Assembly: GCF_027213785.1 (NCBI RefSeq)
Contig: NZ_JAPWGO010000003.1
Coordinates: 62,001 to 126,000 of the forward strand
Length of the DNA: 64,000 nucleotides
Origin: Limimaricola sp. G21655-S1
Lineage (GTDB): Bacteria > Pseudomonadota > Alphaproteobacteria > Rhodobacterales > Rhodobacteraceae
Direction of reading: 5' to 3'
The notes beneath the pieces were generated by a model. That model was not told where the DNA came from, did not search any database, and saw only the letters and a program-made list of their open reading frames with translations. A program made the translations under genes and the position numbers. Positions 859 to 15,446 of this stretch are shown piece after piece. Each line of letters begins with the position of its first letter. Positions within the stretch are counted from its first letter, which is position 1.

Positions 859-1773
859 CTAGAGGCTTTTCAAATAAGTAGCGATGGCCTCGAGATCTTC
901 TCCCGTCAGATGACTTGTGCCATGCTCGATTACATCGATCATCTTGCCGCCGGATACGTCGCCATCCGGTGTCAGCCCGAGCTGGAGGTAGAACACCAGG
1001 TCGTTGAGGCTCCAATCGCGTATCGTGGATCGGCTGCCTGCAATGGGCGGGGCGCCAGATGAGAACGAGCTCTTGCCCGCGCCCTCTAGTGCATTGGCGC
1101 TAATCCCGCCGATGAGATTCCTTGCAGTATGGCACTCGCCGCAGTGGCCAGGGCCGTTCACGAGATATGCGCCACGGTTCCAGATTGCTGACTCCACTTC
1201 ATTGGAAACGAACGGTTCGGGAGTGTGATAAAGGCTTTTCCAGACCCCCACGAGTTGTCGGTTCGAGAAGGGCCAAATCAATTCGTGCGGCCGGTTCGGC
1301 CTGGCCACCGGCTCGACCGTATCCAGGTAGGCCTTGAGATCGACGATATCTTCGGTCTTGACGCGCCCGTAGCTGGTATAGGGGAAGCTGGGAAAATAAT
1401 GTTCGCCATCCGGAGTCACACCTGCGGTCATGGCAACGTAGAAATCCTCGAGCGACATCGCACCGATGCCGTGTTCCGTATCCGGTGTGATATTGGGGGC
1501 GTAGAATGTGCCGAACGGTGTTTCCAGCCCGGCACCGCCGGCCAGAAAAACACCACCGTTGTCGATATCGGTATGGCAGACGACGCAGCCACCCATTCGC
1601 AACACGTATTCCCCGCGCTCTGCATCGGCGGAGTAGGCGCCCAGATCAACGTTCTTCGCTGTTTGTCCCAAGCCCGGAAGAATGAAAGCGTAGCCGAATG
1701 CCGCGGCAGCAACGCTTATGCCGAATAGCCAGATAATAGGCTTGGTCATTTTTGACGTTCGGATAGCTAACAT
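859..1773 (-). CDS. Membrane-anchored dihaem cytochrome c
   Basis: A 304-residue protein with an N-terminal hydrophobic segment (about residues 12-33) followed by two class-I cytochrome c domains. Haem-binding CVVCH lies at about 63-67 and CGECH at 211-215; possible Met ligands lie in the GGKM and similar C-terminal segments. The layout resembles dihaem cytochrome subunits that take electrons from periplasmic dehydrogenases. It is the last gene of a three-gene minus-strand cytochrome operon. I start it at ATG 1773, which follows a GGCGAG stretch; ATG 1749 (MTKPIIWLFG) is an alternative. An upstream extension of the frame exists but runs into the preceding gene and is not used. The physiological donor and acceptor cannot be told from sequence. 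Confidence 0.85.
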   Translation of the reverse strand: MLAIRTSKMTKPIIWLFGISVAAAAFGYAFILPGLGQTAKNVDLGAYSADAERGEYVLRMGGCVVCHTDIDNGGVFLAGGAGLETPFGTFYAPNITPDTEHGIGAMSLEDFYVAMTAGVTPDGEHYFPSFPYTSYGRVKTEDIVDLKAYLDTVEPVARPNRPHELIWPFSNRQLVGVWKSLYHTPEPFVSNEVESAIWNRGAYLVNGPGHCGECHTARNLIGGISANALEGAGKSSFSSGAPPIAGSRSTIRDWSLNDLVFYLQLGLTPDGDVSGGKMIDVIEHGTSHLTGEDLEAIATYLKSL

Positions 1774-1786
1774 CAGACGGGCTCGC

Positions 1787-2260
1787 CTATCTTGGTTGCT
1801 TGTAGCTTTCTTCCTTTGGTTTGCGGAAGGGCTGGTGGCAGGATCCGCAGGATTTGCCGAGGCTTTGCATCGCCATCGCGATATCGCGCATGTCGCCCTC
1901 TTCGGCCGCTTTGGCAAGCGCCGCGCTGGCTTTGGACATCTCCGCATTCAATTCGACGAAATCGTCTATCCTGCTCCAGATCTCGGGCTGCGCGTCCGTC
2001 AATCCGTCGCTCACCTGTTCTTCGAATGCGGCGGGAACGAGTTCCGCCGCATTCTCGATGAGCTCCGCGTGTTCCGCTATGTGCTCGGTCAGCGGCAGAC
2101 GCCCCTTCACGATGGCCGCGACCGCAGCCATATGGCCGCCGATCGCCCGCATCAGGTGCTGACGATACTCGATGACGCTGTCGCTATTCGCACTGGCGTG
2201 GCTGCCTGGCATGGCGATCAATGCGCTTAGGGTCACCGCAGCAAGAAATCGACGCAGCAT
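1787..2260 (-). CDS. Cytochrome c-prime / c556 family protein
   Basis: A 157-residue secreted protein. Residues 1-24 form a signal peptide (MLRRFLAAVTLSALIAMPG...ASA). The rest is an alpha-helical stretch ending with a single haem site CGSCH at about 138-142, close to the C-terminus, which is diagnostic of the four-helix cytochrome c-prime/c556 family. These are periplasmic monohaem proteins implicated in electron transfer or NO binding. It starts 9 nt after the TGA at 2270-2272 that would end the full-length multihaem cytochrome frame, and ends 13 nt before the dihaem cytochrome start, so the three genes look co-transcribed. Confidence 0.87.
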   Translation of the reverse strand: MLRRFLAAVTLSALIAMPGSHASANSDSVIEYRQHLMRAIGGHMAAVAAIVKGRLPLTEHIAEHAELIENAAELVPAAFEEQVSDGLTDAQPEIWSRIDDFVELNAEMSKASAALAKAAEEGDMRDIAMAMQSLGKSCGSCHQPFRKPKEESYKQPR

Positions 2261-2269
2261 AAGGACATC

Positions 2270-2452
2270 TCACTTGTGCTGAATTTCGGAAACGTCGTGG
2301 CAGGTGCCGCAGGCCGAGGTGTAAGGGATCGGCATCGCGTTGCCCGGCAATTCGCCTTGAACGCCGACGGTCGTCGTGCGCGGGACGTCGAACACGTGGG
2401 AGTTGATATCCCCCTGCAGGTAGGCGTTTATCTCTTCGGTGAGTGCGTCGTA
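2270..2452 (-). pseudogene. Severed C-terminal tail of the multihaem cytochrome (eighth haem site)
   Basis: Directly after the TAA at 2453-2455, in the same frame, 60 sense codons read YDALTEEINAYLQG and onward to CGTCHDVSEIQHK, then TGA at 2270-2272. The CGTCH haem motif is encoded by 2311-2297. The tail starts with no good ribosome-binding site of its own, has the same composition as the upstream gene, and ends 9 nt before the cytochrome c-prime start. All this indicates that it was the native C-terminus of the upstream protein. What remains uncertain is whether the TAA is a genuine mutation, a sequencing error, or is read through. Confidence 0.75.
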
Positions 2453-4390
2453 TTAGGGTGGCGCGCTGACCATGCGTCCGAAGCGTCCCGAGTCGCCTCC
2501 ATGGATGGCCGTTCCGGGCATGTGGCAGTCGACGCAGCGCGTTCCTGCCGCGCCCTTCATCTCGCTGCCGAGCTGGTGCTGCATATGCGCGTTGATATCG
2601 ACGGCATGACAGTTCTGGCAGAGCGGCGACGACGCGTCGTCCGGATCGCCAACGAGTGAGCGCCGAAAGCCGGTGCCGCCATGCATGTCGTGACAGTCGC
2701 TGCATCCGACCATACGCCGGTCGTTCCTGTACATGCCCGATTTCATGTAATCCGCGTATTGCTGGTGCGGATTGCGGGAGTGGATGTCGTCGACCCAGAT
2801 GTGACGGCCGGGGATGGGGCCGCGCGTCACGCTGTACTCGGTGATCATGGTGTGGCGGCTCAGCCCCGGCGGCATCATCTCGCCGTCCTCGTTGATCGGC
2901 TGGGTATAGCCGAGGGTGGGGCCGCCCGGCCCCTGCCGGCGGTCGTGACAGCGGCCGCAGACCGCCGTTTCCCGTTCGACGGACAGGTAGGCGGGATTGA
3001 CCATGTGGGACGGGAAGTTTTCTCCTAGCCCGGCGAACGCCGCATGCTCGGAGCCGGGGCCATGGCAGGTCTCGCATCCGACATTGACCTCGTCCATCTC
3101 GGGATCATCGTCGATGTTGAACGCGCCGTTCGGATCGTTGACCCCGCGCACAAGCGCCTGTCCCGTCTCCTCGTCCATGTACCGTTCGTACCCAGTGACA
3201 TGGCAGGCGGCGCACATCGCTTGGATCGTGTTCTCGTTCACTGCGGGCGCCGTGATCCGGTCGTCGGGGGTCCCGTATTCGCCGTCCTCGCCCTTGCTCC
3301 ACCAATAGTTGAACTTGTAGTCTCGCCAGACGCGCCGATTATGGGTCAGCCGACGATCGTCTCCGTTCGGGTGGAACTGCAGCAGCGTATATATGCCCTG
3401 CCGATCCCCCAACGATTCCGGGACCGAGACCATGTATCTCTGACGCAGGACCGCGCCCCCATAGACCATCTCGATCTTCAGATGGGCCGGGCTGGCAGGA
3501 TCGGTTTCGTTCAGGCGGTTCTCGACCGAGATATAGTATTCGCCGTCCTGCGCGCTCTTCCAGAAATAGATGTCCGCGTAGATCTTCTCGATCTCCACCC
3601 TTTCATCATCGGCGAGGCGGATCTTGAACTTCACGTTGCCGCGGGCCTCCGGGTTGTAGTCGCCGATCTCGAGACGGGTGCCGCCCTCATACGATTCAGC
3701 CTCGATCCACGACTCGAGCGCCTCGAAGAAGTCCGGGAACTGCGAAAAATCCTGGTGAGGTCCCGGATTGCCGGGGCGGGACCATGCGAGCTTGTGTCCC
3801 GTCTGCTTCCAGGCCGCCTGCTCCTCGTGACATTCCAGGCATTGGGTGCTGCCGATGTACTCGGCATGGGGCGGCGGGCGGCTCGACAGCTGAATCCTCT
3901 TTTCATGCCCTCGAAGCTCCTGCGCATCATAGGAAGCACGGCTCTTGTCGCCGCCGGGCAGGTGCTCGACATCGCCGTCGGCGAGTGCGACATAGACGAA
4001 GAACCGGCCATCCGGGATGTCGAATATCCGGAAATGTCCCTGCTGATCTGTTTTCCCGCTAGGGAGCTGGTCGCGATGCCTCGCAATCGCATCTTCCAGG
4101 GGTTCGTCATACGCATCGGCCGCATATGGTTCATCGAACACCGCCGAGGCCGTTATCGGCGTCATGTCGATCATAGTGGTCGGCACGAGGTATACCGTAG
4201 CGGCCGCGACCGGGAGATCTCGGGAACTCACGACCCGTCCCAAAAGATCGTCCGCCGCTATAGGGTCAGTGAAACTCGGGAAAACCGGTTTGCCGTCCTG
4301 TGCAGTCGCAATTCCAGTGCTTGAGAGATATACGAGAACTGCGATCAGTAGATTGGAAACGCAAACCATTAGGCGAAAATTCAACCCCAT
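2453..4390 (-). CDS. Multihaem cytochrome c (seven haem motifs, interrupted by in-frame TAA)
   Basis: The translated part has 645 residues. It starts at ATG 4390 (MGLNFRLMVCVSNLL...), with GGAG 6 nt upstream; ATGs at 4426, 4405 and 4402 are in frame but less well placed. A signal peptide ends near residue 30. Residues 45-170 look like a carboxypeptidase-regulatory-type beta-sandwich (LLGRVVSSRDLPVAAATVYLV...GHFRIFDIPDG). Seven CxxCH sites follow: CLECH (184), CAACH (393), CETCH (439), CGRCH (478), CSDCH (563), CQNCH (591), CVDCH (619). The pattern resembles cytochrome c554-type multihaem proteins; exact substrate unknown. TAA at 2453-2455 stops translation, but the same frame continues for 60 codons and carries an eighth site, so this copy appears truncated by a nonsense change. 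Confidence 0.8.
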   Translation of the reverse strand: MGLNFRLMVCVSNLLIAVLVYLSSTGIATAQDGKPVFPSFTDPIAADDLLGRVVSSRDLPVAAATVYLVPTTMIDMTPITASAVFDEPYAADAYDEPLEDAIARHRDQLPSGKTDQQGHFRIFDIPDGRFFVYVALADGDVEHLPGGDKSRASYDAQELRGHEKRIQLSSRPPPHAEYIGSTQCLECHEEQAAWKQTGHKLAWSRPGNPGPHQDFSQFPDFFEALESWIEAESYEGGTRLEIGDYNPEARGNVKFKIRLADDERVEIEKIYADIYFWKSAQDGEYYISVENRLNETDPASPAHLKIEMVYGGAVLRQRYMVSVPESLGDRQGIYTLLQFHPNGDDRRLTHNRRVWRDYKFNYWWSKGEDGEYGTPDDRITAPAVNENTIQAMCAACHVTGYERYMDEETGQALVRGVNDPNGAFNIDDDPEMDEVNVGCETCHGPGSEHAAFAGLGENFPSHMVNPAYLSVERETAVCGRCHDRRQGPGGPTLGYTQPINEDGEMMPPGLSRHTMITEYSVTRGPIPGRHIWVDDIHSRNPHQQYADYMKSGMYRNDRRMVGCSDCHDMHGGTGFRRSLVGDPDDASSPLCQNCHAVDINAHMQHQLGSEMKGAAGTRCVDCHMPGTAIHGGDSGRFGRMVSAPP

Positions 4391-5258
4391 CCTTCGCTCC
4401 ATCATAGGTCGGGGTTCGGGCGGCATTGGCTATAAGCCGCCACAATATCATCATTGGATTCCCGACAATTAGTTTTATTAAAGGCAATGTGCGAGCGCTC
4501 GAGCGGCAAGGGGCCGATTTGCAGCGCTACCTACATCTAAAGTATCCTCCCATTTCTTTTCATCTATTTGTCTTCCGTAGTTTGACACACGGGGAGTGCC
4601 AGCGGCGAACCCCAATGTTGGTCGTGTATGAAATATGCCTGCAGTCAATGGCGGATGAACTATCGACAGATTGTCGTTGCGTGGCCCTTGCAGTTTAGTT
4701 TGCTGTATCAATGGATATTGGTGAAATACAGAGGGCCATACCTTCAGGATCGTGAATCAAGGTCAGAAGTCAACGATGCTGTCGATGCTCGATGGGTGAT
4801 ATGACCCAACATTCATGCAGGCTATTAGTAACCACCTTCGATTTTGTATTGGTTCGAGGGGTTTCCTCTTGGAATGCCGCCATTGAAATGCCCTAACTGT
4901 CGAGATGGATTATGCCGTCGTGGGACGGGTGAGGCGACGAGTGGAAAGCCCGAAAAGCACGAGGGAATGTTGCTGAAGCTGCGGCAGATCGAGGTGCTGC
5001 ATGAGTAAGGTATTAAGCTATTCCGTCTCTGGTGCTGAAAGCCATCCACAGCCACGAGCTCGCGCCGAGCCCGGCGGGGCTTCGTCTTCTCTAGGCGACC
5101 GAATGGTCGTCTCCGGCGGCAGAGGCGCGGACCTCTTGGCATGGTCGGCGCAGCCAGCAGTGCGAAAAGTCGTCAATCTATGCCGAGATTGGCCATCACC
5201 CTGCGACCTACCCGTCCCGGCAACTCAGGTGAATATCTATCGATATCAGGGGGGATAG
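4391..5258. other. Gene-poor region upstream of the cytochrome operon
   Basis: No reading frame here has convincing codon bias or a recognisable domain. The first 300 bases are AT-rich for this genome and presumably hold the promoter of the minus-strand cytochrome operon. On the plus strand, 4874-5008 encodes a short frame (MPPLKCPNCRDG...) whose end, KPEKHEGMLLKLRQIEVLHE, faintly resembles the N-terminus of IS3-type OrfA proteins (xxKLRQVEVL). It may be a decayed transposase scrap, but the match is too short to assert. The region ends at the left attachment repeat of the integrated element. Confidence 0.4.
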
Positions 5259-5278
5259 TGGCGGAGAGACAGGGATTC
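5259..5278. repeat. attL: duplicated tRNA-Ser 3' end
   Basis: The 20 bases are identical to 15357-15376, where they form the CCA end, acceptor strand and part of the T-arm of tRNA-Ser (minus strand). Identity stops abruptly on both sides (flanks AT here versus GA on the right), as expected for an attachment core. Confidence 0.92.
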
Positions 5279-5357
5279 ATCTGACACCCCCATGTGCGGA
5301 TAAAATCCCGTTTTATATGGGATATGGCGACATATCGATTGCCGGTCGGCATCGGTA

Positions 5358-5381
5358 TTGTGTAGCAAAATGTGTAGCGCG
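5358..5381 (+). repeat. Tandem 12-bp repeat, candidate integrase arm site (left end)
   Basis: TTGTGTAGCAAA is followed at once by ATGTGTAGCGCG, an imperfect tandem repeat 80 bp inside attL. It matches the perfect tandem ATGTGGAGCAAA pair near the other end of the element (15256-15279), in the same orientation. Position and duplication suggest recombinase arm-type binding sites; this is inference. Confidence 0.55.
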
Positions 5382-5439
5382 GCTTGATCGTCGGAGACGG
5401 CCTCGATACAGGTTGAACAAGGGCAAAGCGAACTGGCAG

Positions 5440-6762
5440 ATGGCAGGCATAACGAAGCGCAACGGGACCTGGCATCTGCGGATGCGTGTGCCCCGGAGGT
5501 ATGGTCGGGTATAGCCCCGAACCGAGATCCACCGCAGCCTACGCACCGACAGCGAGCGCGAGGCAAGGGCCCGTCTTCCGGCAGCCGAGGCGGCGGTTTT
5601 GGCCGAGCTCGACGCGCGCCTGACAATGGGCAAGTCTCAGCAGCCGGCTGACGTATTCTCGGCTGCGGTTGCCTTGGCAGCAACCCGCGGCATCACCTAC
5701 CGCCAAGCCGACGATCTCGCGAGCGGGCCGCTCGAAGAGATCCTCGCTCGTCTTGATACCCTGAAGCCGGCTGACACCCCTCAGATGGCGCGAGCGCTGC
5801 TCGGCGGGGTCGAGGCGCCAGAGCTGATGCTGTCGGAACTTGTCAAGGAAGTCGAACGGGTCTGTGCGCATGACAACCGCTACAAGAGCGACACGCAGAT
5901 GCGCTTGTGGCGCAACCCTCGGACGCGCGCGGTGAGGAACCTCATAGCCGCCCTGGGTGGCGACCGGCCTGTCCTGTCGCTGGAGGCTGTGGATGCCCGT
6001 AAGCACAAAGCATGGTGGCAGAAACGGATCGAAAGGGAGGGTCAGACAGCGGAGACGGCGAAGAAGGATTTCTCGAACATGTCCTCGATGCTGGCCCATT
6101 ACTATGACAGCCTCGACCTTGCGGAGCCACCACGCCCTTATCTCGGTGTGACGCTCCGGGATCGGCATGCGGTCAAGGGTCGCAAACCTGAGATACCTGT
6201 CGAGTGGATCGTGGAGAAATGGTTCGCGCCCGGCGCATTCGATGACCTTAATGACGAGGCCCGCGATATCCTACTGATCTCAATCGAAACCGGTTGCCGA
6301 CAAACAGAGATCCACGATCTCCCTTCGGACGCCATCGTGCTGGACGCGGTGATCCCGCATCTGCGGATCGCCTTCGAGGACGGCGACGAGAAGCGCGAGA
6401 TCAAGAACACATCCTCCGTGCGCCTTGTGCCACTTGTAGGTGTGGCACTGGCAGCAGCGCGGCGGCATCCGAATGGTTTCCCCCGCTACCGCTACAAGCG
6501 CAGCTATTCAGCGCTCATCAACGGATATCTTCGTGGCCACGACCTAATGCCGTCGCCGAGACACACCGCCGGCGGGACGCGGCATACTTGGGAAAGCCGA
6601 CTGAAGGCCGCCGAGATTGCATCGGATGACCGTGCAGAGATGATGGGGCATAGCGTAGCCTCGGCGCGAAATCGGGAGCTTTACGGTGACGAGATGCCTT
6701 TGGCACGCAAGCTAGAGCTGGCGCAAATGGTGGCGCTGGCAGTGCCTAAACACCTCGCCTAG
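5440..6762 (+). pseudogene. Phage-type tyrosine recombinase (integrase) with in-frame amber codon
   Basis: The intact frame would encode 440 residues from ATG 5440: MAGITKRNGTWHLRMRVPRRYGRV, then TAG at 5512-5514, then PRTEIHRSLRTDSEREARARLP and the rest in the same frame. The N-terminus is the DUF6538 type found in alphaproteobacterial integrases, where a Glu commonly occupies the TAG position (GAG to TAG would be a single change). Catalytic-domain landmarks follow: Arg in ETGCRQTE (about 287), RHTWESR (about 381), GH (about 404) and Tyr in ELYGDE (about 415). Without suppression, only reinitiation downstream (for example TTG 5599) could yield protein, lacking the N-terminal domain. Its position beside attL marks it as the element's integrase. 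Confidence 0.85.
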
Positions 6763-6935
6763 CTGAGTGCTGAAACGTCACTATCGCCGCCAGTAGCGCA
6801 CACGGTTGAGTGGGTGATCGTCTATGTAGCCACACTCTGGAACCTCGTCCGAGCCATCGTCAACTTGTGTTTCGGGTTCGTCCATGTTTACGCTCGCCTC
6901 AACCCATGCTTGTCGAAGCCTTCTAATCTAAGTGA

Positions 6936-8162
6936 ATGTATTCCGTGGATATAGACGTCTTTATTTCGTATGCATCAGAAGATCTGCACCTTGCGCAGGC
7001 CCTATATCGGCGCCTTCGAGAAACCGGTTTGAAGCCATGGATGGACAAGCCGCCGAAACCTTATAGTTTGGATGGATTGCGTCCAGGGGATTTGTGGGAA
7101 GACAGGCTAAGGGAAGCCATCTCAGCGGCGAAGTATTTTGTTCCACTGTTTTCTAGTAAATCTGTGACGAAGATTGGTTATGTTCAATCCGAGTTTCGGC
7201 AGGCTCTAAGTAGGCTTGCCTTGGTTCCTGCCGGTAGTGTCTATATTCTGCCGGTTCGTTTGGAAGATTGTGAGATACCGAGGGTTCGGATCGACGGTAT
7301 CTCATTTGCTCAATATCAATACATCGATTGCTTCCATGGAGATTTCTATACTCTGGTATCGTATATTGCAGAGCTTGAAGGTAACGCTGTAACGCCGTTA
7401 GATTTTACTGATACTACCGTCTCATCTGGCGATGAGTTCTTGGCAAACATTCGCTCGCACACGAGAATGGGTATTGATAAAAGTTTTTCTCTAAGCAATT
7501 TATCTATTCCCGATGTTCGTGAGGTTTCGGTGCAGGAGGTTTTCGATGGCGAGGAAATTATACTTCGAGATCTCGAGAACTTCACCTTGGTCGGACATGG
7601 GAGGGTCGAGCTGACCGTAGAGCCACGCTACGCTACGACCCTCACCTTCAAGAACTGCCCTTCGGTAAGGATTCGCGGCTTATCGCTTGGACACAGGCCC
7701 GACATGGGCTCTTGCATGGGAGCAGTTCTTAAGTTCGAAGACTGCGGAGTTGTAGTAATTGAGGACTGCAATCTTTTCGGATGCGGAACCTACGGTATAG
7801 AGGCGCATAGATGTGACTCTGTCACGTTAGTGGATTGCAATATTTTCGAATGTTCGCAGGGATTTGCTATTATAGATAGCGTCGGTCGCGCCAAGCTGGT
7901 CGGCTGTGAGTTATTTGATACTTGGTTCTATAGCGCGATCGAGGTTAGGTTTTCTGATTTAATAATGGAGAACTCTAGGGTCACAAATAGTGCCCCCCAT
8001 TCTATTTCGAGTAACGTTTTCTCCTCGTATCGTTCGGAGGTCAGCTTCAGTAACGTTTGTATCGAAATACCTACAGGTGTTGACCTTGGCTTGCCAGATA
8101 ATGCTCCCGGGCTGACCGTAAGCCGTCAGGCTGTTTCCCTTCCTCCGGCCGAACGGGGCTAA
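6936..8162 (+). CDS. TIR domain fused to right-handed beta-helix repeat domain
   Basis: 408 residues. Residues 1-145 form a TIR-type domain: VDIDVFISYASEDLHLAQAL (betaA-alphaA), a WMDKP box, LREAISAAKYFVPLFSSKSV, and a candidate NADase glutamate at E86 (GYVQSEFRQAL). After a linker, residues about 190-375 repeat short hydrophobic/Cys/Asn rungs of roughly 20-25 residues (TLTFKNCPSVRIRGLSLG, LKFEDCGVVVIEDCNLFGC, TLVDCNIFECSQG), the look of a parallel beta-helix. No signal peptide or membrane span, so cytoplasmic. Family knowledge: bacterial TIR domains often cleave NAD+ in antiphage defence, with the partner domain sensing the trigger. The gene stands alone with a clearly lower GC than its neighbours, suggesting separate acquisition. 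Start: ATG 6936 with weak upstream signal; GTG 6945 is possible. Confidence 0.8.
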   Translation: MYSVDIDVFISYASEDLHLAQALYRRLRETGLKPWMDKPPKPYSLDGLRPGDLWEDRLREAISAAKYFVPLFSSKSVTKIGYVQSEFRQALSRLALVPAGSVYILPVRLEDCEIPRVRIDGISFAQYQYIDCFHGDFYTLVSYIAELEGNAVTPLDFTDTTVSSGDEFLANIRSHTRMGIDKSFSLSNLSIPDVREVSVQEVFDGEEIILRDLENFTLVGHGRVELTVEPRYATTLTFKNCPSVRIRGLSLGHRPDMGSCMGAVLKFEDCGVVVIEDCNLFGCGTYGIEAHRCDSVTLVDCNIFECSQGFAIIDSVGRAKLVGCELFDTWFYSAIEVRFSDLIMENSRVTNSAPHSISSNVFSSYRSEVSFSNVCIEIPTGVDLGLPDNAPGLTVSRQAVSLPPAERG

Positions 8163-8357
8163 TTTGAGTAATTGTCGTTGCATTGAATCTTTTGGCAGTT
8201 AGTCGGGTGATCTTGCGGCCTCGTCGGGATGCACCTTATGCGGTATTTTTTGTTTCTTTCGACGGCCAGCAGATATTCAGGGGGGCATCATTTCGATGAA
8301 ATAAGGGCTTCCAGCTAAGCGTTAACTGTGGAAACGCTCTACGTTTCGTGCTCAACT
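8163..8357. other. Convergent intergenic spacer
   Basis: It lies between the plus-strand TIR gene and the minus-strand mobilisation genes. It contains a T-run (TATTTTTTGTTTC near 8250) that could serve termination, but no strong stem precedes it. No gene seen. Confidence 0.35.
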
Positions 8358-8636
8358 TCAAGCTGCATTTCGCACTGCTTCCTCAGCGATCTGTCGGGCG
8401 CGCTCAAGCACATTCGCTTGTGTTGTCAATTGTGCCAACTCGGCCTCGATCCTCGTGAAGAGGGGGAGCACCCACATCTCTCCGCTTGTCAGAATTGTCG
8501 CTAGCCTGTCACGGGCCTCGGTCAGGCGTACAATGTCCCCCAGATTTGCGTTTGACAACTCCGTAACCTGCCCACTCCAAGCGGGACCGGCTGAGCCGGT
8601 TCCTTGCAACGGAATGGTGGCGAGGGGGGCGTGCAT
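8358..8636 (-). CDS. Small hypothetical protein, third gene of the mob group
   Basis: 92 residues, not recognised. The middle and C-terminal parts are predicted helical and charged (LGDIVRLTEARDRLATIL, ELAQLTTQANVLERARQIAEEAV), compatible with a short coiled coil. No signal peptide, Cys pairs or nucleotide motif. It follows the 139-residue gene on the same strand after 81 nt and ends facing the TIR gene. Codon use resembles the mob genes rather than the AT-rich cargo, so it probably travels with the relaxase. Function unknown. Confidence 0.5.
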   Translation of the reverse strand: MHAPLATIPLQGTGSAGPAWSGQVTELSNANLGDIVRLTEARDRLATILTSGEMWVLPLFTRIEAELAQLTTQANVLERARQIAEEAVRNAA

Positions 8637-8717
8637 TGTATCGTCTCGATGAGGAGGTCGGGGGGCTATGGAGTTTGCCGCCCTCCGATGACGGAGGGCG
8701 CGAGGATCAAACGATGA

Positions 8718-9137
8718 TCAAGTAGGGGTCGTCGCGTCGTCAGCCATCCGGCGTTCACGCTCACGCTCCGCGGCTTCTTCGGCCTTGATGCGCTCGATCT
8801 CGGCAAGCCGCTTCTCGACAATGGCATCGACCTTCTCGGGGCGGAGCGGGTGCGACGCGATGCGCTTGCGGTTGGCTTTGGTGGCCACAACCTCGAGGCC
8901 TGCGAAGACCTCGACGATGAGGGACATGTCTGCGTCCTCGATCCACGCGGTAAAGTGCTCGCCAATGGCCTTGCGACGAGCGGCGTCAAGGCGCTCCTCT
9001 GCCTTGGCATCCTTGTCGATCGCCTTCTCGAGCGCGGCGATCGCCCGCTGTTTCGCGGTCAGCTTGGGGCGATCTCCGCCGCTCCCGCGGCCATCGGCGG
9101 GGGCATGGAAACGGGTGGTGTTCAGCAGGTTCTTCAT
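8718..9137 (-). CDS. Hypothetical helical protein downstream of relaxase
   Basis: 139 residues. An N-terminal Gly-rich tract (PADGRGSGGDRPKLTAKQRA) is followed by helices rich in Ala, Arg, Lys and Glu, and the C-terminal third (VEKRLAEIERIKAEEAAERERERRM) is a strong coiled-coil candidate. No catalytic motif seen. It lies 174 nt after the relaxase stop on the same strand, a position where mobilisation accessory proteins occur, but I do not recognise a named family. The AACCTAACC stretch just upstream offers no strong ribosome-binding site. Confidence 0.55.
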   Translation of the reverse strand: MKNLLNTTRFHAPADGRGSGGDRPKLTAKQRAIAALEKAIDKDAKAEERLDAARRKAIGEHFTAWIEDADMSLIVEVFAGLEVVATKANRKRIASHPLRPEKVDAIVEKRLAEIERIKAEEAAERERERRMADDATTPT

Positions 9138-9311: not shown

Positions 9312-10670
9312 TTAAGACCGCTCGTCATCGCCGTCTTTCGAGCGACCTTCGTTGCCTTCACCGCGGCCGGTAAGTGCCATGATGCGCGCTGTAAGTGAGA
9401 TCCGGATCTTGCCGATGGCCCGACGGTCGGCCTCGGGAAGGCGAGACGCGATCTCGACGATCTTTTCGTCTGCGAACCGGATCTCGACCGTGTCGCGCGC
9501 GACAACTGCCTCAGCCTCATCGCGGGCCTGTTTGCGCAAGCGAGTAAAGGCCTTCGAGAACACATGAAGCGCACGAGCACGGCCTGCAGAAGACGGGGCC
9601 ATGCGCGCCCTCAACTTCGACAGAAGCCCAGGATTGGCCGTCGGCACCTCGACAAGCACCGGCGTTCGATCGCTGTCATCGATGTCGAAGGCTCCTGCTG
9701 CCAACCCTTGACCGATCGCTAGCACCGCCTCGGCCTCCTGCTCTTTCGTTTCCGCAGCCCGCTCCCTGTCCGTTGTGGCGCTTTCGCGTAGAACGACGGC
9801 GCTCTCCCGAGCGGTGATGGCGTCTTGCTTCTGCTCGAGGTCTGCTTCCTCGCCGGCCAAGGCCTCCGCGCGTTTGCCGAGTTCGGCGCGGGTTTCGACA
9901 ATCCTCGTATCCTCCGACTTGCGCCAGTCGGCCGTCCGCACATGCTGCCGGTAGGCTGGCGGCTCCTCACCGTTCTGCCGTGCCTGTCGCACTGCTTCCG
10001 CCCGCCGCTCACCACGCATGAGACCAAGCGTCGCGAAATGCTTGCCTACGCTGTCTTGGGCCGCCTCGTAGTCCTTGATCAGTTCGTGCTTGGAGGGTTG
10101 GAGCATCCAGCGCTTCGTGCCGTTCAGATCCACCTGGACCTTCGGCACGATGACAGCGTGGATGTGAAATGCCTGCTCGTCGAGGTCAGCCCGGGCATGC
10201 ACGACATCCTCGCCGAAGTTCTTCAGCAGCCAATCGCGGGCCACATCCTCGAATGCCTGCGCGCGGGCCTTGCGGGCAGCAGGGGTAGGGAGGGCGTCGA
10301 ACCAATCACGATTGGCCGTCAGGATGACCTCCCGCATAGGCCCGTGGCGAGTGGCCCGCCAAGGATCGCGCGGGCCTTCGGCCATCCGCTCCTTGAGCTG
10401 TTTCTTTCGGCGACGCCGCGTGAGCGTTTTGATCTCGTCGGCGAAGTTCTCGGCCTTCATATCTTCGATCATGGCGATCGTGCGCGCCGCCCAATCCGCT
10501 TCGCCGATCACGGGGCGGTTCAGGTGAGAGCGGGTGGGATCGACATGCCCGAGATCGCCACCGTTCCGGGTGCGATGCTTCTCATAGCCACCGATGTCAG
10601 CAGGGAACAATCCTTGGAAACGGCAGACAACGGCGAACTTGGGGCGGGGCGGTTGGAACACGGGGCACAT
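9312..10670 (-). CDS. mobV: MobV/Pre-family relaxase (plasmid mobilisation/recombination protein)
   Basis: 452 residues. The N-terminal relaxase region carries the family's first motif (YEKHRTRNGGDLGHVDPTRSHLNR, residues about 29-52) and the metal-binding motif HARADLDEQAFHIHAVIVPK (about 153-172; HxDE...HxH core). The C-terminal half is a long Glu/Ala/Arg-rich coiled coil (about 250-330) and a basic tail. Family role: nicks one strand at oriT and stays linked to it, allowing mobilisation by a helper conjugation system. The start may be ATG 10670 or GTG 10661, which is better spaced from GGAG. It leads a minus-strand group with two small genes. The DNA immediately upstream is packed with inverted repeats and is the likely oriT. 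Confidence 0.85.
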   Translation of the reverse strand: MCPVFQPPRPKFAVVCRFQGLFPADIGGYEKHRTRNGGDLGHVDPTRSHLNRPVIGEADWAARTIAMIEDMKAENFADEIKTLTRRRRKKQLKERMAEGPRDPWRATRHGPMREVILTANRDWFDALPTPAARKARAQAFEDVARDWLLKNFGEDVVHARADLDEQAFHIHAVIVPKVQVDLNGTKRWMLQPSKHELIKDYEAAQDSVGKHFATLGLMRGERRAEAVRQARQNGEEPPAYRQHVRTADWRKSEDTRIVETRAELGKRAEALAGEEADLEQKQDAITARESAVVLRESATTDRERAAETKEQEAEAVLAIGQGLAAGAFDIDDSDRTPVLVEVPTANPGLLSKLRARMAPSSAGRARALHVFSKAFTRLRKQARDEAEAVVARDTVEIRFADEKIVEIASRLPEADRRAIGKIRISLTARIMALTGRGEGNEGRSKDGDDERS

Positions 10671-11408
10671 CTCCGGAAGGACAGGAGACGGGAAAATGTT
10701 GTTGACCCAGGCGATCCGGAAATCGCGGTTCCTTCAACGGCGTGACGCTGGGTGTGCTTAGCACTTTACTCACTAATCAGCCTGCGCAGTCGTCGCGCTG
10801 CGCGCGCCTTTGTGCGCAGGCTGTCGTTCGCCAGGGGAGACCCCTGGACCCCAGCGCCGCTGCCGCGCCGCCAGGGAGACACACCGCTCTCCCTGACCCT
10901 CTCGGGGCCTTCAGCCGGAGCAAGGGTCATCGTTCCGCACTCCCCCTTGCATCCCCCTGCTCGCAGGGGCCCGTTCGCCGCGCCCCCTGCACCCCTTGGG
11001 CAGTGCCACCCACCAAACACAACACGGCCGCACACCCTCCAGGATGCACAGCGGCGTTGTGTTTGAGAATCTCACAATTCCGTACAATTGTTGCTGCGCT
11101 GCATTTTTGTCGTATTCGTTGCAGCCCAACCGACGCACCCGTCAAATTCAGCAGTCGGCGAGAGGCATGCCGTACAGGGCGGCCTATTCCGACTCCAACG
11201 ATTGTCAGACAGGAACTAAGGCCTCAAGGCACTGAGCCGCGAAGAACTATGTAGCAGACCTCCTTAGCCAGAACCGACTAAAGAACGGCGTCAAGCTGTA
11301 CCGGATCCTGCGAAAATCACGTCCTCCCCCTTGAACAGAGTGAGGCTCTATCGCAATCTTCCTTGGGTTGACGTCGATCAAAAAAAGAACACTAAGGGCT
11401 TAAGTTGC
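10671..11408. other. Non-coding region between mobV and the ATPase gene
   Basis: 738 bp holding divergent upstream regions. The mobV-proximal part (10780-11070) is GC-rich and full of stems, described separately. The remainder (11070-11408) becomes AT-richer towards the ATPase gene and presumably contains its promoter; no clear -35/-10 pair stands out. No supported gene. Confidence 0.5.
10779..11064. other. Inverted-repeat cluster upstream of mobV: candidate oriT
   Basis: Five inverted repeats occur in under 300 bp: AGCCTGCGCA/TGCGCAGGCT (10779-10788 and 10813-10822), CCAGGGG-AGA-CCCCTGG (10831-10847), CAGGGAGA/TCTCCCTG (10872-10879 and 10888-10895), CCCCTG-CTCG-CAGGGG (10954-10969), and AAACACAAC/GTTGTGTTT (11015-11023 and 11056-11064, the arms extending with a small bulge into GCCGC/GCGGC). 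The location directly 5' of a relaxase gene is where oriT normally sits. No coding frame here is convincing. The exact nic site cannot be read from sequence alone. Confidence 0.5.
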
Positions 11409-12515
11409 ATGCACATACAAACGATCTCAGTTGAAGGCCTATTTGGAAAATCTGACGTAGTGGAGTTGAACTTCAACAAAGATCTAAACATCGTGACAGG
11501 CCGAAATGGGTCGGGGAAAACAACCCTACTTAAGCTGGCGTGGTTCGTAATGAGCGGAAATATTCTTCACGCGCTCCGCGAAGTTGAGTTTAAGTCATTT
11601 CATATGGTCACGAGTGATTATTCCTGCCACGTTGTTCGCACTGGACCTCTTCACTGCCGAATTGAAATGGAGCACGATGGTCAAGTTCATTCATTTGAGG
11701 ACGATCAGGGTGATCCAGCCGAAGACCCATTCTTTGAGTCCGCTGAAGATAAGGCAAATCCAATACTGGCTTCCCTCGGCCGTACCGTATTCTTTCCTAC
11801 TTTCCGGCGGATCGAAGGCGGATTCTCGATGGACACTACCAGAAAGCCGCGCAGTAGAAATGCATTGAGGGCAGAATCAGAGATAGATGAGGCGCTATCA
11901 TCGCTCTCCAAAAGGCTTGGCAGTGAGGATCACGTTTTTGTCTCAGCCATATCCACTCAAGACATCGTTCAGCTACTATTACGGCGCTACGCCTCTTTTT
12001 CAGAGGAGATAAACGCATTCCAAGCGGATGTTTCGAGGTCGGTAATTGACAAGATTAAAAGATACGAAGAGATAGACAGCGACAGGAAGGATGCGAATTC
12101 GTTGCTGTCAGAAACGCGCACGGACATTGAGAGTATCGAAACATTTCGCCGGGAAACAATGAGGCCGCTCGATGCCGTCAGGGGGCTGGTTGAGCGTCTT
12201 TTCCAGCACTCTGGTATTTCGTTTGGAACCAGACTAAGTTTTGGAGATGCAGCGGCGGCAGTCAATAGTAACGCTCTGTCAGCCGGCGAAAAGCAGATGC
12301 TTAGCTTCATTTGCTATAACGCGTTTTACAAAAATGCAGTTATTTTCATAGATGAGCCAGAGCTAAGCTTGCACGTGGATTGGCAAAGGCAGTTATTCAG
12401 CATTCTCGAGGGCCAGAAGTCTGAAAATCAGTTCGTTTTCGCAACGCATTCTCCATTCATATATGCGAAATATCCGGACAAGGAAATCGCCGTTAACCTT
12501 GATCGCGGTGAGTGA
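11409..12515 (+). CDS. ABC-type/OLD-like AAA ATPase
   Basis: 368 residues from ATG 11409; an in-frame TTG at 11331 is less likely. Walker A GRNGSGKT lies at 31-38, near the N-terminus. A central charged helical part (IDKIKRYEEIDSDRKDANSLL...) follows, then an ABC signature LSAGEKQML at about 292, Walker B VIFIDEPELSLH at about 315 and an H-loop FATHSPF near 347. This is the AAA15/OLD/RecF-like class of SMC-type ATPases used in several bacterial defence systems. The gene overlaps the following DUF4435-like gene by a few bases, so the two are translationally coupled and their products probably act together. GC content is well below that of the chromosome, consistent with recent transfer. Confidence 0.82.
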   Translation: MHIQTISVEGLFGKSDVVELNFNKDLNIVTGRNGSGKTTLLKLAWFVMSGNILHALREVEFKSFHMVTSDYSCHVVRTGPLHCRIEMEHDGQVHSFEDDQGDPAEDPFFESAEDKANPILASLGRTVFFPTFRRIEGGFSMDTTRKPRSRNALRAESEIDEALSSLSKRLGSEDHVFVSAISTQDIVQLLLRRYASFSEEINAFQADVSRSVIDKIKRYEEIDSDRKDANSLLSETRTDIESIETFRRETMRPLDAVRGLVERLFQHSGISFGTRLSFGDAAAAVNSNALSAGEKQMLSFICYNAFYKNAVIFIDEPELSLHVDWQRQLFSILEGQKSENQFVFATHSPFIYAKYPDKEIAVNLDRGE

Positions 12516-13267
12516 TCTTTATGCCAGCCAACAGATCTCGCCCTACCGTTAATGAGACGTTTGAGCTAATCAAGAGGTCAAGTCTGCCTACCGTATTAGT
12601 TGAGGGAAATGATGATATTATTTTCTATAGGCGGGTTGAGGAGGAACTTTCCCACCTGCAGGTAGATATTCTCCCGGCAGGCAATAAGGATGCCGTTATT
12701 GAGCTTATGGAAAAATTGGATGAGCTAACCACAGCCCCGCCACTCGTTTATGTTGTTGATAAGGATTTATGGGTTCATGGCACGCCAGAATGGGTGGCAA
12801 GGTGGGATAGGCTCATTACTACTAATGGCTACTCAGTCGAGAATGATCTGTTTAGAGATGGGGACCTTGTAAGCCTACTAACAAAAGATGAGCTGGAAGC
12901 ATTTACTGCTGACGTAGAAATTTTTGTTAGGTGGTATGCGCTTGCTGTTCATAGGATTCTCTCAGGCAAAGTTTCTGCATTCCGGACCCACCCTGGGAAA
13001 GTTTTGGATAATAAAGACTTCTACGAGGAGGAGACCTCACTTAACGAAGGCGAGGAGTACCCTGAAGAGCTTAGAAAAGCTATTATGACAGAATACGATC
13101 TTTCACTTCGGGGCAAATCACTCCTCTCTCTGCTCCACCGACAGTTGAGCAAAGATGGCAGGCGAATAAAGTACAGTACTAAGCAATTGATTGAGTTTGG
13201 GGCATCAAGGAAGGGGAAGAAATTCGAGCGCTTAAGAGATTTGATTGAACTAAAGATTGGTACATAA
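12512..13267 (+). CDS. DUF4435-like (TOPRIM-like) partner protein
   Basis: 251 residues from GTG 12512 (248 from ATG 12521, also in frame). The N-terminal half contains VLVEGNDDIIFYRRV and, about 50 residues on, PLVYVVDKDLW. A Glu-x-x-Asp-Asp segment followed by a D-x-D-like strand is the acidic arrangement of TOPRIM nuclease domains and matches what I know of DUF4435. The rest is mixed helical with a basic C-terminus. Coupled by overlap to the upstream ATPase, it forms the two-gene equivalent of OLD or GajA proteins, in which ATPase and TOPRIM parts are fused. Nuclease activity and a defence role are inferences. Confidence 0.7.
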   Translation: MIFMPANRSRPTVNETFELIKRSSLPTVLVEGNDDIIFYRRVEEELSHLQVDILPAGNKDAVIELMEKLDELTTAPPLVYVVDKDLWVHGTPEWVARWDRLITTNGYSVENDLFRDGDLVSLLTKDELEAFTADVEIFVRWYALAVHRILSGKVSAFRTHPGKVLDNKDFYEEETSLNEGEEYPEELRKAIMTEYDLSLRGKSLLSLLHRQLSKDGRRIKYSTKQLIEFGASRKGKKFERLRDLIELKIGT

Positions 13268-13877: not shown

Positions 13878-14435
13878 ATGCTCGACAGCATTCAGACCAC
13901 CCTCGCGATGATGCCTGCTTGGCGGGATCTCGTCACCCCCGGCGACATCGTCTCGTTCCGCTTCCCGTTGGCCGAGGAGGGCCACACTGGGCGCCCCAAA
14001 TCGCGCCCCTGCCTCATCCTCGATCTCGAGGAGCGTGGCGGCAAGCGCTACGCGCTGCTCGCCTACGGCACCACCTCCCGTCGCCGGTCCAACACCGGCT
14101 ACGAGGTGCATGTCCGTCGCCGGGCGGACTATCTCTCGGCGGGGCTGAATGAGCCGACCCGCTTCGTCGGCGCGCGCAGGCTGCTCGTGCCGCTGAACCA
14201 CGGCGGCTTCTCCGTTTGCCAAGCCACCGGTTCGGCCGTGCTCGGGCGCCTCGACGGATCGGCCTTCGCGGCGATGAACGCCGTGCGCGGCCGCATCCAC
14301 GCGGAGCGCGACATCGCGGCCGACCGCCGGGCCGGGCGCCGGTCCCGGGCAGGCGTCGACCGAGGGCGCGGCTTCACGGTCGAGCGGCGCACGCGGCGGC
14401 GCCTGGCCGAGGCCGGGAAGGTGGTGCAGCAATGA
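13878..14435 (+). CDS. PemK/MazF-like protein
   Basis: 185 residues; ATG 13878 preceded by AAGGA at 9 nt. Residues 21-75 contain PGDIVSFRFPLAEEGHTGRPKSRPCLILDLE, the conserved opening of the PemK/MazF fold (PGDIV...G...RP.LIL), followed by a strand with YALLAYGTTS. The C-terminal 50 residues are strongly basic (RRAGRRSRAGVDRGRGFTVERRTRRRLAEAG), beyond the usual MazF length of about 110-120, perhaps a nucleic-acid-binding tail. Its stop overlaps the ATG of the next gene (ATGA). Family role: toxin ribonuclease; here activity is unproved, and the gene order (putative toxin first) is not the common one. Confidence 0.65.
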   Translation: MLDSIQTTLAMMPAWRDLVTPGDIVSFRFPLAEEGHTGRPKSRPCLILDLEERGGKRYALLAYGTTSRRRSNTGYEVHVRRRADYLSAGLNEPTRFVGARRLLVPLNHGGFSVCQATGSAVLGRLDGSAFAAMNAVRGRIHAERDIAADRRAGRRSRAGVDRGRGFTVERRTRRRLAEAGKVVQQ

Positions 14436-14881
14436 CCGCGCTTCCGCCGAAGACGCTGGTCGAGCAGCAGGTCGACCTCGTGCGCGTCGTTCTCGGGCTG
14501 CGGCGTGGGATGTCGCAACACCTGATCAACAATGTCATGCCGTATGTCGGTGACGACGCACGAGCAGCTGTCGAGGGGGCCATCGAGTTTCTCGACGAGG
14601 AGGCCGACATCGACGACAATCTCCCATATTTCCTCGACTCGGCAATCGGGGAGATCCGCACCGCGATCGCCGCCGGAACATCCGAGGAAAAGGTTGCCAT
14701 CCCGCGCGAGCGCCTGATCGGCTGCACCGAGGCCTTCGACCGGCATCGGCGGCTCTCGCCAGAGGCGGAGGCGCTTCAAGCGGCGCTGCCGCTGCTCGAG
14801 CAGCTGCACCAAGCCGCCCGTCGCGCGGTCGACTTCGCCGAGGCGATCAGGCTCAGTATCCGCATGATCGACGCGGAGTAA
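14432..14881 (+). CDS. Hypothetical partner of the MazF-like gene
   Basis: 149 residues beginning in the ATGA overlap with the upstream gene, so the two are co-translated. The sequence is acidic in the middle (VEGAIEFLDEEADIDDNLPYFLDSAIGEIRTAI) and largely helical, with a C-terminal helix-rich part (LPLLEQLHQAARRAVDFAEAIRLSIRMIDAE). No helix-turn-helix or AbrB-like N-terminus is obvious. Coupling suggests that it could be the cognate antitoxin or an unrelated island protein; I do not recognise the family. A perfect GC-rich hairpin follows its stop codon. Confidence 0.6.
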   Translation: MTALPPKTLVEQQVDLVRVVLGLRRGMSQHLINNVMPYVGDDARAAVEGAIEFLDEEADIDDNLPYFLDSAIGEIRTAIAAGTSEEKVAIPRERLIGCTEAFDRHRRLSPEAEALQAALPLLEQLHQAARRAVDFAEAIRLSIRMIDAE

Positions 14882-15356: not shown

Positions 15357-15376
15357 TGGCGGAGAGACAGGGATTC
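15357..15376. repeat. attR within the tRNA-Ser 3' end
   Basis: A perfect copy of the attL 20-mer. On the minus strand it reads from the T-arm through the acceptor strand, discriminator G and encoded CCA of tRNA-Ser, so integration left the tRNA intact on this side. Confidence 0.92.
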
Positions 15377-15446
15377 GAACCCTGGGAACCCGTGAAGGCT
15401 CAACGGTTTTCGAGACCGCCCCGTTCGACCACTCCGGCACCTCTCC
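15357..15446 (-). tRNA. tRNA-Ser(CGA)
   Basis: The minus strand reads GGAGAGGTGCCGGAGTGG at the 5' end and closes with TCTCTCCGCCA. Acceptor stem GGAGAG pairs with CTCTCC; the T-arm contains GGTTCGAATCC; a long variable arm (GAGCCTTCACGGGTTC) is typical of serine tRNAs. The anticodon loop CTCGAAA gives CGA, reading UCG. CCA is encoded. The 3' half is the integration target of the adjacent element. Confidence 0.93.

Follow-up and report, generated by a model that had tools for sequence, protein, structure and literature searches.

What does a gene that joins a TIR domain to a parallel beta-helix do on a mobile element, and could it be an antiphage system complete in itself? The gene lies in a 64,000-nt window, the whole stretch of DNA that was analysed, from Limimaricola sp. 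G21655-S1 (GCF_027213785.1, contig NZ_JAPWGO010000003.1, positions 62,001 to 126,000, forward strand). Both the architecture of the encoded protein and its genomic setting are real, and the features that define them are collected in Table 1.

Table 1. Features of the fusion gene and of the element that carries it (positions in the window).
Feature	Positions	Strand	Evidence and remarks
TIR and beta-helix fusion gene	6936..8162	+	ATG start, 408 aa; Pfam TIR_2 and Beta_helix; full-length relative L001
TIR domain, about residues 5-150	6948..7385	+	Pfam TIR_2, PDB profile matches, Foldseek rows of TIR NADases
E86 codon, candidate catalytic Glu	7191..7193	+	conserved in TIR alignments; aligns with Glu of Cat1 and AbTIR
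Right-handed parallel beta-helix, about residues 158-402	7407..8141	+	Pfam Beta_helix, models, VIA-align; part up to about residue 230 low-confidence
Left attachment repeat, 20 bp, equal to 3' end of tRNA-Ser	5259..5278	.	
Right attachment repeat, equal to 3' end of tRNA-Ser	15357..15376	.	
tRNA-Ser (cga), integration site	15357..15446	-	ARAGORN
Integrase	5599..6762	+	PHROG phrog_1 integrase 4.8e-17; without Pfam match
MobV-like relaxase	9312..10670	-	Pfam Mob_Pre 6.6e-7, above cut-off; NCBIfam MobV 3e-17, 63.4 bits, under cut-off of 100
AriA-like ATPase	11331..12515	+	PADLOC AriA 1.1e-28, then PtuA and other ATPase models; Pfam AAA_21
AriB-like DUF4435 protein	12512..13267	+	PADLOC AriB 3.3e-11; Pfam DUF4435 1.6e-10

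Each half of the fusion protein is recognised on its own. Pfam TIR_2 matches residues 8-135 (E 1.8e-20, 74.1 bits against a curated cut-off of 28), and Pfam Beta_helix matches residues 264-374 (E 2e-8, 34.5 bits against a curated cut-off of 25.9). The reading frame is not a chance product, since a full-length relative that is 50% identical exists. The joining of the two domains in one ORF, as the initial annotation had it, is confirmed. The description of the helix as rich in Cys and Asn survives in part: over residues 215-398 the Cys content is 5.4%, which makes the first half of the statement fair, but Asn at 4.9% leaves the second unsupported. No secretion signal is evident from the domain position (the TIR domain begins within the first eight residues), and the protein is presumably cytosolic.

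We modelled the protein with AlphaFold2. With 2 sequences (first model), the helix is fairly good, with ten-residue pLDDT means of 51-92 over residues 231-400, and the TIR domain is poor. With 9 sequences (second model), both domains are present at a mean pLDDT of 70.5 (TIR blocks 57-85, helix blocks 49-93 over residues 231-400), and residues 151-230 reach just 34-63. About six clear three-strand turns span residues 233-379 of the second model and are preceded by about two weaker ones, in agreement with the roughly eight rungs counted from the sequence at the outset. In both models residues ~156-402 align with polysaccharide lyases, epimerases and phage tailspikes. Among the matches listed, VIA-align Z scores are 16.2-19.1 for the first model and 14.5-17.2 for the second; these are re-alignments of Foldseek's own candidates, and neither model had a Foldseek match that reached E 0.001. 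Structure prediction thus yields the right-handed solenoid that had been suggested for residues ~160-400, with Beta_helix above its cut-off and Z of 14.5-19.1 among the matches listed.

The TIR domain is related to known NADases. Glutamate occupies the E86 position in all 30 aligned TIR_2 proteins of the class, the window's included, and in all nine TIRs of alignment A3. The nine-TIR profile matches the PDB chains of Cat1, AbTIR, SARM1 and TIR-APAZ, and it places E86 in line with a glutamate of Cat1 and AbTIR that we take to be catalytic. This invariance and the alignment with solved TIR NADases favour E86 as the candidate catalytic residue, as first proposed, and by sequence the TIR domain probably cleaves NAD+. 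Four residues before E86, at position 82, the protein has Tyr where AbTIR has Trp; across the 30 class TIR_2 proteins this column holds W in 14, F in 5, Y in 4, G in 4 and other residues in 3. Both fusion proteins carry seven extra residues after a W-M-D motif relative to the other seven TIRs of A3. By its position we take this site to be the BB loop, so the insertion would touch TIR self-association. For the second model, TIR proteins (AbTIR, SARM1, SPARTA, SpbK) make up most of the top Foldseek rows, at probability 0.99-1.00 and E of 1e-2 and worse, interspersed with flavodoxin-like and beta-helix chains. PADLOC matches of the fusion proteins are confined to the TIR part.

The fusion gene is carried by a 10.1-kb element that lies between perfect 20-bp repeats in a tRNA-Ser gene. 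By chance, 500 sequences drawn from a first-order Markov model of positions 4300-9000 gave no exact tRNA match longer than 13. The AriA gene of the element is followed by the AriB gene, adjacent and overlapping, which is the arrangement that identifies PARIS; we call the pair PARIS-like because the AriA-like protein is matched by further ATPase models, PtuA among them. GC content is 47.8% in the fusion gene and 47.3% and 44.6% in the AriA/AriB-like pair, against 61.6% in the integrase, 63.6% in the relaxase and 67.4% in the right flank, so that the fusion gene and the pair look like cargo of other origin. With the element as a whole at 56.7%, the fusion gene is AT-rich as annotated. Its placement as a solitary gene in a mobile island with a second defence-type pair is likewise accurate: the single-gene layout, the island and the AriA/AriB-like pair are all real. 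No partner gene adjoins the fusion gene, either in the window or in Cohaesibacter marisflavi, the source of its relative.

We compared the tRNA-Ser regions of six relatives, taken from the 60 of 61 family genomes in which the tRNA-Ser stretch has some match; two of these regions are short (4.7 and 6.5 kb). The first gene to the right of tRNA-Ser is kept in all six and rplU also in five. At 1e-5, the fusion gene, the relaxase and AriA/B are absent from all six regions. One relative (L060) has another integrase beside its tRNA-Ser, 34% identical. The window's left-flank genes lie beside tRNA-Ser in none of the six, hence a clean empty site was not found. Near the right end of the element, two overlapping GC-rich genes (13878-14881) have no Pfam match above cut-off. 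Directly to the left of the element are cytochrome c genes (859-4426), one of them encoding a protein of 657 aa that has several matches to multihaem cytochromes; none of the stretches from the six relatives has these genes next to tRNA-Ser.

A scan of genome contigs with the whole protein (19 pattern matches) found one full-length relative, in Cohaesibacter marisflavi (L001), which is 50% identical end to end and brings the known members of the fusion to two. The relative is encoded in a prophage that is also an IMG/VR record (L017), where its gene sits in the interval bounded by the gene of a large tail protein (phrog_4271) and a tail-fibre-like gene and is read in the opposite direction to them. 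Small proteins and one with a Transgly domain are further cargo at this locus. The Transgly protein (L001:6357-7052, 231 aa; PF00912, 1.3e-31) adjoins the fusion gene on the same strand. A HEPN match of L001:9276-9749 was set aside (15.2 against a cut-off of 24.4), and a conserved operon was rejected, as no L001 neighbour recurs beside the window gene.

A related endolysin is found in seven viral contigs, of which L048 is the L001 prophage itself and L051-L054 are more distant and were left out of the comparison. Sister prophage L049 keeps both bounding genes, between which lie a NUDIX protein and a protein of 452 aa that matches no family, while L050 keeps both and has 431-aa and 167-aa proteins between them on the tail strand. 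The content between the same genes differs, so on these two comparisons the interval holds variable cargo. In this it resembles the prophage hotspots described in excerpts of PMC9122126. The 452-aa protein of L049, which has no Pfam, PADLOC or PHROG match, and the convergent NUDIX protein beside it (L049:5851-7830) are themselves candidate phage-related cargo. The same fusion had been expected in defence islands; the relative is indeed also mobile-element cargo, in a prophage, but the association rests on two loci.

Whole-genome searches with the protein gave matches in 13 of 385 genomes of the class, 4 of 292 of the order and 10 of 249 of the order of the Cohaesibacter genome (own or Cohaesibacter genome counted in each), and in these sets no match spanned both domains beyond the own and Cohaesibacter genomes. 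Two of the ten matches in the order of Cohaesibacter are to the helix only (L027, L033). The helix profile has a match in one of 398 genomes, which is its own. Viral contigs searched with the protein, A1 and the helix profile A2 gave nothing besides the Cohaesibacter prophage. A tblastn search of phages and plasmids with the helix half gave no matches, and the whole protein matches five plasmid records, all by the TIR part alone. These genome sets overlap and were sampled or pattern-seeded, so the rarity is a floor and not a census.

The TIR_2 family itself is present in 44 of 240 genomes of the class. In a comparison set of 30 loci (the window and 29 others), Pfam Beta_helix at 1e-3 matches none of the 29 other class TIR_2 proteins, because just seven families match two or more of the 30 and Beta_helix is not among them; six of the 29 frames are incomplete (L076, L081, L082, L083, L084, L097), and in these a domain farther on could be missed. 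No TIR and beta-helix defence protein was found in PADLOC, in NCBIfam or among the papers listed by a targeted literature search. The build was initially called undescribed, and this holds in that no described system was found, but the coverage lacks one main survey of TIR defence proteins, that of Wang et al. 2024 (12 E. coli TIR systems), which might contain such a build. Excerpts of the TIR survey PMC7075850 make no mention of a beta-helix, and in excerpts of other papers from that search beta-helix terms refer to a cupin fold, a reference title and the HET-s amyloid.

Two other kinds of TIR protein were met. Three genomes encode TIR_2 proteins with a C-terminal DUF3298 (L018:1465-2637, L020:721-1881, L026:694-1872). 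Two of the three also have a weaker PdaC match, under the cut-off, and the C-terminal part of the L020 protein has weak matches (2e-5 to 6e-4) to PDB chains of the DUF3298 type. We take DUF3298/PdaC to be the lysozyme-binding part of RsiV; these proteins could be TIR sensors of phage endolysin. On viral contigs, four proteins of about 500 aa (L065, L067, L068, L069) have a C-terminal TIR domain after what appears by eye to be a reverse transcriptase, and are presumably of the retron-TIR type.

The conserved E86, the mobile and AriA/AriB-linked setting, the prophage cargo interval and the faster divergence of the helix (described below) lead us to a reading that we favour slightly over even odds. 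The fusion protein would be a single-gene abortive-infection TIR NADase, SpbK-like in its working and carried as mobile-element cargo, with the helix as its sensor or clustering platform. The role given to the helix follows from the way TIR NADases act, once another domain gathers them, as described in excerpts of PMC12847820. We infer from the evidence above both phage defence and a sensing role for the helix. In the cytosol, the C-terminal beta-helix would bind a product of phage infection. The likeliest candidate is a structural protein of the phage that is repetitive or oligomeric. PMC12847820 reports that portals, capsids and tail proteins of phages set off other TIR systems. Binding would cluster several copies of the protein, and the N-terminal TIR domains would then self-associate and form E86-dependent active sites. 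Cleavage of NAD+ would halt the infected cell before phage release.

The same sensing could have a different output, in which the TIR domain, like those of Thoeris, produces a messenger such as a cADPR isomer or a similar molecule that acts on an effector from another locus, in place of arrest by NAD+ loss. Bacterial TIRs can do either, according to excerpts of PMC12847820, and Pfam ThsB_TIR matches 10 of the 30 class TIR_2 proteins at 1e-3, the window protein not among them. We consider a signal-making role unlikely, given that no Thoeris-type effector occurs among the nine element proteins scanned and that the gene stands alone at both loci.

The two halves of the protein have diverged at different rates. 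Between the window protein and its relative, 103 of 146 residues are identical in the TIR domain (residues 5-150, 71%) and 96 of 241 in the helix (residues 158-398, 40%), a difference with Fisher p of 6e-9. By structure, identity in the helix is 37/103 in strands and 34/81 in loops, with no pattern marking a binding face. A recognition module under change would explain why the helix diverges faster, but so would a loosely constrained solenoid, and the strand and loop counts do not decide between them. Beta-helices are often structural, and the weak constraint on the helix sequence would suit an oligomerisation or scaffold part that recognises nothing of the phage, the trigger being sensed by the TIR domain or by another protein. 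This too seems improbable to us: the ~240-residue helix is intact and in frame in both relatives, and it occupies the place of the sensors in other TIR defence proteins.

How the helix might sense a phage can be pictured more closely. The two-row helix profile matches a K1 capsule depolymerase at 1.5e-6 (0.0085 with the window sequence alone), and a tail-spike PHROG is matched by the relative at 2e-5 and by the window protein at just 0.025. These matches permit, without proving, a docking of the helix on phage tail or tailspike trimers. The helix would then be a tailspike solenoid, captured or imitated, that attaches to newly made tail or tailspike trimers in the cell, the trimer arranging at least three TIR domains into an active assembly; this picture fits the prophage locus, which keeps the gene between tail genes, and we regard it as doubtful. 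It would make the protein a decoy-type receptor, the fold of a phage attack part turned into a phage alarm, a notion to which we give the same small weight. Least likely of all is a mobile-element TIR with no part in phage defence (element competition, copy control or an effector on other cells), for although TIR proteins also have roles outside defence, as excerpts of PMC7075850 relate, both members are isolated cargo of different kinds of mobile element, one of them beside the AriA/AriB-like pair, and no secretion signal is evident ahead of a TIR domain that lies within the first eight residues.

Should the protein be the single-gene TIR NADase that we favour, a single gene of 408 aa would make up the entire system. 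TIR defence proteins differ chiefly in their phage-sensing part, and a beta-helix would add a sensor class with a tailspike fold. One of its settings is a mobilisable tRNA-Ser element that also holds a PARIS-like pair, the other a cargo interval of a prophage; together they exemplify the movement of defence-type genes from one kind of mobile element to another.

Among known systems, the closest in working is SpbK. Excerpts of PMC12847820 describe SpbK of ICEBs1 in Bacillus subtilis as a TIR NADase encoded by a single gene on an integrative element and activated by clustering on the phage portal; the clustering proposed above for the fusion protein is modelled on it. The fusion protein is likewise a single-gene TIR with an integrative carrier, and the SpbK filament chain 9phb stands at Foldseek rank 12 (probability 1.00, E 2.7e-2). 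The sensing part of SpbK is N-terminal and docks on the clip domain of the portal (excerpts of PMC12847820), whereas that proposed for the fusion protein is a C-terminal beta-helix; the start of the TIR domain within the first eight residues means that there is no SpbK-type N-terminal domain. Membership of SpbK is rejected, and the claim is one of similar working.

Other TIR systems are more distant. AbTIR, Cat1 and SARM1 share the profile matches and the conserved Glu with the fusion TIR, but their partner domains are other or none. The likeness to SPARTA TIR-APAZ lies in the TIR part alone (profile and Foldseek matches), as does that to the retron TIR (RT-TIR), where NCBIfam Retron_TIR_antiphage matches residues 5-107 at 6e-7 (28.6 bits, under its cut-off of 600). 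A scan of nine proteins of the element gave no match to a reverse transcriptase, to APAZ or Argonaute, or to a ThsA-type protein, and the retron TIR, SPARTA and Thoeris are rejected on these respective counts. CBASS TIR-SAVED is rejected as well: PADLOC SAVED_TIR covers the TIR part alone (residues 6-78, 7.6e-7), and there is no cyclase among the nine proteins. Phage tailspikes and polysaccharide lyases have their fold in common with the helix, which is shorter, TIR-fused and apparently cytosolic; a secreted polysaccharide enzyme is rejected by the TIR domain at the extreme N-terminus. In the type of cargo, the nearest parallels are PARIS and the TIR-STAND/TPR protein of the P4 hotspot, which are likewise cargo of phage or satellite hotspots, the TIR defence again being single-gene (excerpts of PMC9122126). 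The P4-hotspot protein joins its TIR domain to a STAND NTPase and TPRs, according to the same excerpts (PMC9122126), whereas the fusion protein has a beta-helix and is carried by a tRNA-Ser element that encodes a relaxase. What is new here is a TIR effector with a beta-helix in place of the sensor of other TIR defence proteins.
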